Assembly: GCA_034439655.1 (NCBI GenBank)
Contig: JAWXAU010000001.1
Coordinates: 1-34,156, forward strand
DNA: 34,156 nt
Direction: 5' to 3'
Source of the DNA: Bacteroidota bacterium
GTDB taxonomy: Bacteria; Bacteroidota; Bacteroidia; UKL13-3
Shown here piece after piece: positions 31,471 to 34,156 of the stretch. A program made the position numbers and the translations under genes. The first letter of the stretch is position 1. Each line of letters starts with the position of its first letter. The notes beneath the pieces are model-generated. The model did no database searches, had not been told where the DNA came from, and was given only the letters and a program-made list of their open reading frames with translations.

Positions 31471-32091
31471 TTATATATAATTATCAAAACTAATTCCATT
31501 GTCAATTGCATATTTCACTAAGCCAGCCAGATTTTTCACTTTTAATTTTTTCAATATACTTTTCCTATGCGTATCAACAGTGAATTGGCTCAGCGATAGT
31601 TTCTGGGCGATTTGCTGTGAAGTATGTTCCGTAATGACTAATTTTAATATATCCAACTCACGAGGGGTCAAGAAAGTTTCTTTTTGGTCTTTTGGTTTTT
31701 GAATTTCCGGAAAGCATATACCGCCTTTTACTACTTCATATATAGTTTTGAGAAGTATTTCTTTGCCTGTATTTTTTAGAAGGTAAGCCATAGCACCATA
31801 GTTCATAGCATCATTAATATATCTTCTGTCATTAAACATTGACAGGATAATAAACTTGGTATTACTTTTATTTTTTAAAGTTTTGATAACTTGCAGCCCG
31901 TCTTTTTCAGGCATTCTCAAATCTAAGAGAGCTATATCGGGCTTCAAGTTTATTATGTCATTATATGCTTTCTGCCCGTTGTTTGAATGACCAATAATGA
32001 TAATATTTTCTTCACTTTTGAGCAATAAAGTAAGCCCATCAATAATAATTTGATGGTCGTCTGCAATATATATAGTAATACTTTCTTTCAT
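31471..32091 (-). CDS. NarL/FixJ (LuxR-type) response regulator
   Basis: A 206-residue transcription factor. The N-terminal receiver contains IADDH (Asp11/12), phospho-acceptor Asp57 in ALLDLRMPEKDG, LSMFNDRRY and the Lys of YLLKN. The C-terminal LuxR-type HTH (about 140-200) contains LTPRELDILKLV, TSQQIAQKLSLSQFTVDTHRKSILKKL. Phosphorylation by the cognate kinase should cause dimerisation and DNA binding. Its start overlaps the kinase stop by 4 nt, so the two are translationally coupled. It is the last gene of the four-gene operon. Two 7-2-7 heptamer sites upstream of the operon (34098-34148) fit the binding geometry of this family and suggest autoregulation. Confidence 0.93.
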   Translation of the reverse strand: MKESITIYIADDHQIIIDGLTLLLKSEENIIIIGHSNNGQKAYNDIINLKPDIALLDLRMPEKDGLQVIKTLKNKSNTKFIILSMFNDRRYINDAMNYGAMAYLLKNTGKEILLKTIYEVVKGGICFPEIQKPKDQKETFLTPRELDILKLVITEHTSQQIAQKLSLSQFTVDTHRKSILKKLKVKNLAGLVKYAIDNGISFDNYI

Positions 32092-32855
32092 GAATTTTTT
32101 ATAGGAATTTCTATAATAGTAATCGTACCTTTTGGTGAAGAATCTATATTTAATTTCCCATCGGAATGGGCTACTCTGTTTTTGATATTAAGTAAGCCAT
32201 TACCGTGATGAACAGATGATACATCGTATCCAGTTCCATTGTCGTCAACTATAATTTGAATGACATCTTCATTTGTGAGTATTTGTGCTGAAGCCAATGT
32301 AGCACGTGCATGCTTATGAATATTATGAAGGAGTTCAGCTACTATTCTATATATTGTTTGTATATGAGTTATGTTATCTTCTTCTAGTTCAATATAAAGT
32401 TGATACTGACAACTGAGCTTATTGTTATAATGTGCTATAAGTTCGGCCAAAGCATTTTCCAAGCCTTTTGATGAAAGAAAAGAAAGGGAAAGGTTATGCG
32501 ATATTTCTCTTAGCTCTTCTATCGCCTCATTCATACCATTTGCTACTTTGGTTAATAAATTTGAGTCATTGTTTTGTTTCAAATATTCTAAGCTCATTTT
32601 TAATCCCGAAAGTTTGGCACCTATACCATCATGTATTTCTTCCGACAGGCGTTTACGTTCTTTCTCTACGCCTTCGTTGAGGGCTGTAAATAGTTCCAAC
32701 TGTTTTTTAATTTCTTGATCTCTCAGTTGTAGTCTAAATTTATTTACTTTTTGTTGATGGAGGTACACATAAATAAATAGGAATGTGACTAATAGAAACA
32801 CAAATAAAGTTCCTACTACAAAAAATATGGTTAAGGTGTTTTCTTCCGCAGGCAT
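32088..32855 (-). CDS. Sensor histidine kinase (HisKA_3 type) with minimal input domain
   Basis: A 255-residue inner-membrane kinase. It has one N-terminal transmembrane helix (about 8-32), a coiled-coil linker (QQKVNKFRLQLRDQEIKKQLELF), the HisKA_3 dimerisation helix with phospho-acceptor His75 in RKRLSEEIHDGIGAKLSGLKM, and a HATPase with N-box LLHNIHKHA, VDDNGTGYD and HGNGLLNIKNRV. Only about seven residues lie outside the membrane, so the kinase has no sensor domain of its own. Sensing must come from a partner, most likely the co-encoded membrane protein or lipoprotein. It overlaps the upstream gene by 25 nt and the downstream regulator by 4 nt. Confidence 0.92.
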   Translation of the reverse strand: MPAEENTLTIFFVVGTLFVFLLVTFLFIYVYLHQQKVNKFRLQLRDQEIKKQLELFTALNEGVEKERKRLSEEIHDGIGAKLSGLKMSLEYLKQNNDSNLLTKVANGMNEAIEELREISHNLSLSFLSSKGLENALAELIAHYNNKLSCQYQLYIELEEDNITHIQTIYRIVAELLHNIHKHARATLASAQILTNEDVIQIIVDDNGTGYDVSSVHHGNGLLNIKNRVAHSDGKLNIDSSPKGTITIIEIPIKNS

Positions 32856-33523
32856 ATAAATGAAATGGCAAATATAATGTTCACAAATATATTGATAAAT
32901 GCGTGCATATTATAGCCTTGGTCAACCAAATTATAATTTTTCTTAAGTAAATAGTTTGCAAGCATAAATAAAAAAATATTAATCGAGAAATAAATGACCA
33001 CTCCTGAACTCAGCCAGAACATTGATTTCTTCCAAACTTCTTCCTCCGAAATTTCCTTAAAAAAGGAGAAAAAATACAAAAGCGAGAACATCACTAAAAT
33101 GATACTTTCTACCGAATGACTGATGGTATTAGATCGCCAAAAGCCATTAAAATAAGTAGCATCCAGAACGGCACTGAGCAGAAACAGGAAAGAGGAGATG
33201 GCAATCATCCTTTTCGCGAGCTGGTGATTACTGAAATAAATATAATAAATAGTAGCAAATAAAAAGAACTCAATTATAGTAAAAATGTGCAGTAACGGCA
33301 TATTATTAGAAAATATAATTTTCATATTGCTGGCAATAATTTCCGTAGTGCCTGATATGAAAAAATACAGCAGCAGAATTTTAAATTTTCGGTCAAGAGC
33401 ACCATAAAACCTCAAGCCAGTAATTAGTGGAATTAATATACTGGCCTGAGAGGATTTGATATATAAATAATTAAAGTCCAAAGGGTGTTTTTTAGGGTGT
33501 AAATTTGAATTTGCGAAATACAT
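32831..33523 (-). CDS. Polytopic membrane protein, likely partner of the kinase
   Basis: A 230-residue protein with about six or seven hydrophobic helices (for example LLLYFFISGTTEIIAS, LLHIFTIIEFFLFATIYYIYF, MIAISSFLFLLSAVLDATYF, ESIILVMFSLLYFFSFF, LSSGVVIYFSINIFLFMLA, IFVNIIFAISFICL). Its topology recalls 7TM sensor modules found beside or fused to Bacteroidota kinases. It overlaps the lipoprotein gene upstream by 32 nt and the kinase gene downstream by 25 nt, so the whole operon is translationally interlocked. No enzymatic motif is visible. I infer a sensory or signal-transfer role for the sensor-less kinase. The start at 33523 is the only usable ATG before residue 67. Confidence 0.78.
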   Translation of the reverse strand: MYFANSNLHPKKHPLDFNYLYIKSSQASILIPLITGLRFYGALDRKFKILLLYFFISGTTEIIASNMKIIFSNNMPLLHIFTIIEFFLFATIYYIYFSNHQLAKRMIAISSFLFLLSAVLDATYFNGFWRSNTISHSVESIILVMFSLLYFFSFFKEISEEEVWKKSMFWLSSGVVIYFSINIFLFMLANYLLKKNYNLVDQGYNMHAFINIFVNIIFAISFICLRKKTP

Positions 33524-34034
33524 TTGGCCCTGGGTTTAGCACGGTGTTAGTATTACTGCACTTTGTGGGGCATGGTTGTGCAAATTCGTACATAGCAGAA
33601 GTTCCATCAGCTTTAGTAAGTTTGTCAGTATTGCTTTCGTCAACTCCTACAGCAATTAGTGTTAGGCTATCTCCACCAGCAGTATGTTTAGTGGCGGCAT
33701 AAAATTTCACTTTGGGTGCTGATACAGCTAGTGCTGAGAGATGTGCGGACTCAAATTCCCATGCTGTTGGAACCAGGATAGTAGTATTGGCAGCAGAATT
33801 TCTAAAGCAAGCTGTTAAACTTGTTGCTAGTGTTGGGTCTATTATCTCTGATACAATTTGATCAGGGGAAAGAAGCCCAGATAGATTTTTTGTCCCCAAT
33901 GATAATTGCTTCAAAGAATCATTTTCGGTTTTTAATTTTTCATTTTCTTTTTTCAATTCACCGTCGCTGCAGCTAATGATTGCAAATACCAACATGCATA
34001 AAGCAATTGGTAAAATAATTTTGGTAATTTTCAT
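33492..34034 (-). CDS. Lipoprotein with coiled-coil stalk and C-terminal CPxxC motif
   Basis: A 180-residue lipoprotein. It has a signal peptide with lipobox AIISC (Cys22), then a leucine-zipper-like charged stalk (DGELKKENEKLKTENDSLKQL), a globular domain (about 60-160: WEFESAHLSALAVSAPKVKF, GGDSLTLIAVGVDES) and a cysteine pair in EFAQPCPTKCSN near the end. Acidic residues just after the acylated Cys (SDGE) are compatible with surface export in Bacteroidota. The domain resembles, from memory, an uncharacterised Bacteroidota family that ends in CPxxC. It is the first gene of the operon with the membrane protein, kinase and regulator, so it is a candidate ligand or redox sensor. Promoter box 34065-34073 and two operator-like sites lie upstream. 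Confidence 0.8.
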   Translation of the reverse strand: MKITKIILPIALCMLVFAIISCSDGELKKENEKLKTENDSLKQLSLGTKNLSGLLSPDQIVSEIIDPTLATSLTACFRNSAANTTILVPTAWEFESAHLSALAVSAPKVKFYAATKHTAGGDSLTLIAVGVDESNTDKLTKADGTSAMYEFAQPCPTKCSNTNTVLNPGPNVFRKFKFTP

Positions 34035-34064: not shown

Positions 34065-34073
34065 GCAAATGTA
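34065..34073 (-). promoter_or_regulatory. -7 promoter element of the signalling operon
   Basis: Minus strand TACATTTGC (TAnnTTTG). Predicted transcription start near 34060, with a leader of about 25 nt. No -33 TTG is visible, consistent with a promoter that needs an activator. Confidence 0.55.
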
Positions 34074-34097
34074 AGCGGTAAAAACGGATGACATTTA

Positions 34098-34113
34098 TAC
34101 CGATTCATAGGTA
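34098..34113. promoter_or_regulatory. Operator-like 7-2-7 inverted repeat, promoter-proximal
   Basis: TACCGAT-TC-ATAGGTA. The right half, read on the minus strand, is TACCTAT, a full match to the NarL heptamer TACYYMT; the left half matches 6 of 7. Centred about 45 bp upstream of the predicted start, where class II activators bind. Confidence 0.5.
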
Positions 34114-34132
34114 TTTATACTTTTAAGCAAAT

Positions 34133-34148
34133 TACCTAATATTAGGTA
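34133..34148. promoter_or_regulatory. Operator-like perfect 16-bp palindrome, promoter-distal
   Basis: TACCTAA-TA-TTAGGTA is a perfect palindrome with the same arms and length as the site at 34098. It lies 35 bp further upstream, centred near -80. Each half matches 6 of 7 positions of TACYYMT. Confidence 0.5.
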
Positions 34149-34156
34149 TATTTTCA

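Follow-up and report, generated by a model that had tools for sequence, protein, structure and literature searches.

Probable autoregulation of a four-gene two-component operon in Bacteroidota through paired NarL-type operators

Two palindromes lie upstream of a Bacteroidota operon that encodes a response regulator of the NarL family, and their position raises the question of whether they are operators for that same regulator. The window analyzed here, a stretch of 34,156 nucleotides, is an entire contig (G000:C1), whose end at position 34156 falls 8 bp past the distal palindrome. An initial annotation had proposed autoregulation through these sites and suggested that their motif would locate the regulon. 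As judged from the sequence, the palindromes are very probably dimer operators of the operon's own NarL-type regulator, which would activate the whole operon in a positive feedback loop.

The operon and its promoter

The operon consists of four consecutive minus-strand genes joined by overlaps or tiny gaps (Table 1). The products of genes 1 and 2 match no Pfam or NCBIfam family. A model of the gene 1 protein has a mean pLDDT of 62.9 and gave no significant match in a fold search; its homologs share the PCPxxC motif. This gene 1 family includes lipoprotein-like and apparently cytosolic forms, with tandem duplicates at three loci (L106, L111, L112). No sensor domain is evident in the kinase, and sensing therefore presumably involves the 7-TM and lipoprotein-like proteins. 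The regulator belongs to the NarL/FixJ (LuxR-type) family, as both of its domains score above curated cut-offs (PF00072, E=4.7e-22; PF00196, E=3.3e-16). Its receiver domain is intact, with D11, D12, the phospho-acceptor D57 and the conserved K106 invariant in two alignments (A4 and A6), and DesR, NarL and VraR are among the solved structures closest to the regulator.

Table 1. Features of the window and of related loci discussed in the text. Positions without a locus handle are those of the window.
Feature	Position or locus	Strand	Description
Gene 1	33492..34034	minus	180 aa, small and lipoprotein-like, C-terminal PCPxxCS motif; homologs are the first genes of this operon in other genomes
Gene 2	32831..33523	minus	230-aa multi-helix membrane protein, ~7 TM; model mean pLDDT 85.6
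Gene 3	32088..32855	minus	Histidine kinase, HisKA_3 and HATPase_c, one N-terminal TM helix
Gene 4	31471..32091	minus	NarL/LuxR-type response regulator, Response_reg and GerE; invariant D57 and K106; HTH TVDTHRK
Predicted distal operator	34133..34148	.	TACCTAATATTAGGTA; perfect 16-bp palindrome, centre -79.5
Predicted proximal operator	34098..34113	.	TACCGATTCATAGGTA (TACCTATGAATCGGTA on the coding strand); centre -44.5; same place in homologous operons
Bacteroidota -7 box	34066..34073	minus	TACATTTG (TAnnTTTG); TTTG begins 28 nt past the proximal operator
Inferred transcription start (+1)	34061	minus	Placed from the -7 box; leader 27 nt
NACHT-Mrr gene	L255		Behind composite site
SIR2-like genes	L256, L269		Behind composite site
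PDC-S18/DUF5655 gene	L259		Behind composite site
Mrr genes	L260, L275		Behind composite site
PDC-S61 gene	L261		Behind composite site
DndA/SspA then PbeA	L263		Behind composite site
PDC-S46 as second gene	L264		Behind composite site
PLD and type IV restriction-like helicase	L277		Behind composite site

Both predicted operators are 7-2-7 inverted repeats, 35 bp apart and 5' of the operon, and their heptamers resemble the NarL consensus TACYYMT across a 2-bp gap. One half-site fits it fully (TACCTAT), while TACCGAT and TACCTAA, the latter present twice, each agree at 6 of 7 positions. A TAnnTTTG consensus at -12 to -5 has been described for Flavobacterium (PMC9723704). Setting the -7 box of the operon at these positions yields the inferred start and, from it, the operator centers. 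At the -33 position the promoter has no TTG or TTTG; the bases there are TAAA, adjoining the operator. A -7 box, no -33 element and an adjacent predicted activator site together are the features of an activator-dependent Bacteroidota promoter. The initial annotation had reported the same sites and half-site matches, centers near -45 and -80, and a -7 box lacking a -33 partner, and each of these held on recount.

The direction of control is suggested by this geometry. The positions match sites from which NarL activates in Escherichia coli, making positive autoregulation the likeliest mode. Repression by family regulators is known too, NarL at frdA being an example (PMC4549865), and the regulator could in principle bind here to repress its own operon. 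Such negative feedback is improbable, given that a site at -44.5 without a -33 element is the activating arrangement of yeaR, napF and ogt, whereas no site overlapping the start, as at frdA, was seen at the operon promoter. Site position and protein family likewise suggest that activation depends on phosphorylation.

Conservation of the predicted operators and their probable regulator

The motif by itself is not distinctive. Although TACC-N8-GGTA occurs four times in the window compared with 0.31 +/- 0.60 in dinucleotide shuffles, with two sites (12972 and 30977) outside the operon promoter, the strict form TACCNAN4TNGGTA is found 7 times in the 3.5-Mb genome to which the window belongs and its reversed control 8 times. 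The strict form has no match in random background loci and the remainder of the window (104 kb). Motif frequency was rejected as support for the sites, the genome count being at chance level, and the evidence rests instead on pairing and position. The five strict matches beyond the operon all lie within ORFs, so only the operon promoter is predicted as a target in this genome; it is the one promoter where the strict motif stands at the right spacing from a -7 box. A looser composite pattern has 11 matches in the genome against 1 for its control, from which no regulon is claimed. The expectation that the motif alone would find the regulon thus failed in the window genome, and it fared better in relatives, with the -7 spacing added.

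Searches with the regulator, the first protein and a membrane-protein profile recovered this operon from nine further genomes within the family. Further loci came from Taibaiella lutea, Taibaiella koreensis, Taibaiella chishuiensis and two MAGs; L105, L106, L111 and L112 belong to contigs counted before, and L110 was left out, its contig starting within the operon. TACC-N8-GGTA precedes the first gene in 15/15 operons with readable upstream DNA, the window included, and does so twice in 8 of them, while the membrane proteins share 21-46% identity with that of the window. The sixth base of the half-site, which was left free in the search (TACC was required), is A in 43 of 46 half-sites. Seven kinase-regulator operons of another build, from one genome of the same family, Pedobacter, Flavipsychrobacter and a Chitinophagaceae MAG, also carry TACC-N8-GGTA. 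Among these 22 NarL-type promoters (15 homologous and 7 of the other build), TTTG begins 26-28 nt past the proximal site in 20, and only 3 other TTTG occur in the same 60-nt stretches. This spacing places the proximal center at about -42.5 to -44.5, reckoned as for the window. Chance occurrence of AT-rich palindromes, for which the unremarkable genome count could speak, is refuted by a site kept at fixed spacing in all 15 homologous promoters and retains a negligible probability. Conservation of the site, its pairing and its -7 spacing strongly supports both NarL-type operators and autoregulation, as the initial annotation had proposed.

The distance between paired sites varies (35, 40, 42, 45, 48, 51, 65 and 90 bp), and helical phasing was rejected, as these spacings keep no phase. 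A recognition-helix code for half-site position 5 was also rejected, because base and helix residue do not map one to one: the base is C in G004, G017 and G068, A in G066 and T in G104 and G106, and helix residue K pairs with C in three genomes but with T in L089. In Pedobacter, two more TACC-N8-GGTA palindromes, 24 bp apart, lie just past the regulator gene (L115:5618-5657, L116:5626-5665, L120:3930-3969).

Several points weigh against the operon's own product as the ligand of these sites, among them the variable pair spacing and a recognition helix that differs from that of NarL (TVDTHRK and TVKVHVK, respectively). In addition, there are at least 13 related regulators in the genome of the window, and kinase-regulator pairs of the other build (L058, L115-L125) have the same site at the same spacing, so a paralog could bind the operon sites in cross-regulation. 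This is nonetheless unlikely: the site tracks the operon across genera, the composite signal marks a single promoter in the window genome, and modules built alike but more distant (L090-L104) showed no TACC operator upstream of the first gene. The last result indicates that the site follows the regulator subfamily. These distant loci are wider four-gene modules comprising a small TANYR-type protein, a membrane protein, a kinase and a regulator, and the window genome holds parts of two such TANYR-type modules (L101 and L103).

The proximity of the contig end leaves room for a divergent gene as the main beneficiary of the sites. Such a gene, of caspase-like type, does share the operator region at L109 and L121. 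The distal site of G104 and G106, too, is followed on the divergent side by a TTTG at the right spacing. The proximal site, however, keeps its conserved spacing to the operon's own -7 box, and service mainly to a divergent gene is likewise improbable.

Under positive autoregulation by the operon's own product, a signal sensed through the lipoprotein, the 7-TM protein and the kinase would end in a phosphorylated regulator, which would then dimerize on the -44.5 site, adjoining the -7 box and standing in for the -33 element, with a second dimer on the -79.5 site. Together, the two dimers may activate transcription of all four genes and so close the feedback loop.

Genes behind the composite signal in relatives

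The signal TACCNAN4TNGGTA-N26-28-TTTG has 89 matches in 21 genomes, most of which were picked because they have the operon or a relative. The reversed pattern has 21 matches in the same set, and a spacing of 33-35 gives 11; a few palindromes are counted on both strands. As a raw count, 130 of 395 sampled Bacteroidia genomes have at least one match. No described operator for this NarL-type regulator subfamily in Bacteroidota was found in open-licence literature. The proposed rule, TACCnAN4TnGGTA followed by TTTG 26-28 nt on, would make regulons of the subfamily predictable from sequence.

In one genus of the same family (g3; G004, G017 and G068), approximately 10 of 24 non-operon sites precede defense-type genes (Table 1), in a comparison made post hoc on part of the genes, with many G004 sites clustered on two contigs. 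The remaining sites had no convincing match or no suitable ORF. Among 20 genes taken from random positions of these genomes, 4 gave a PADLOC match, each to a general domain (a sigma-54-type activator, for instance). The post hoc, partial scan and the clustering in G004 make the association of the signal with defense-type promoters a lead, not a demonstration.

In Taibaiella, the composite signal precedes TIR_2 genes, recognized by Pfam at L213 and by sequence likeness at L212 and L220. Each of these TIR-family genes (L212:1592-2506, L213:1625-2470, L220:613-1470) is followed by a second gene, apparently of one shared family. A caspase-domain (Peptidase_C14) gene of T. koreensis (L109:1872-2840) is divergent from the operon across the operators, and a similar caspase-like gene with a TIR-domain WG-repeat protein occupies the same place in L121 (716-2846). 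Most genes behind the signal in G006 and G066 encode proteins predicted to be secreted or membrane-bound, and the two genomes share similar pairs (L281/L284 and L283/L285).

It is possible, though tentative, that in g3 and Taibaiella the autoregulated two-component system controls scattered anti-phage defense and TIR/caspase-type genes via promoters of the form TACC-N8-GGTA-N26-28-TTTG. Two-component control of such defense genes was not found described in open-licence literature. If true, the system would constitute a membrane-sensing switch for the defense repertoire in Bacteroidota. As the rule points to defense genes in some relatives, the question of what stimulus switches on dispersed defense systems becomes testable in cultured Taibaiella strains.

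Comparison with known two-component systems

The best NCBIfam matches of the kinase and regulator are MctS/MctR and NarX/NarL. Both memberships were rejected, the scores falling far under the curated cut-offs (MctR, 151.8 vs 300 bits; NarL, 113.7 of 250 bits; NarX, 72 of 578 bits), and the operon is not an ortholog of the NarXL nitrate system. In Bacillota, the LiaFSR and VraTSR systems combine in one operon a membrane accessory protein, a short HisKA_3 kinase that lacks a large sensor domain, and a NarL-family regulator. The window operon shows the same component layout, a likeness drawn from general knowledge that carries no claim of membership. The kinase matches LiaS weakly, below the cut-off, and because the accessory proteins match no known family, the second protein is not identified as LiaF or VraT and membership was rejected. 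The window operon further differs in adding a lipoprotein-like first gene and in belonging to another phylum.

The nearest parallel in promoter architecture comes from E. coli, where NarL activates ogt from -44.5 and -77.5 and yeaR from a matching position (PMC7419079; PMC4549865). The operon likewise has a NarL-type regulator and 7-2-7 inverted TACC heptamers, predicted at -44.5 and -79.5. It differs from the E. coli system in its kinase and gene set, with no nitrate-sensing domain seen, in using a Bacteroidota -7 box in place of -10 and -35 elements, and in a regulator that probably acts on its own promoter.
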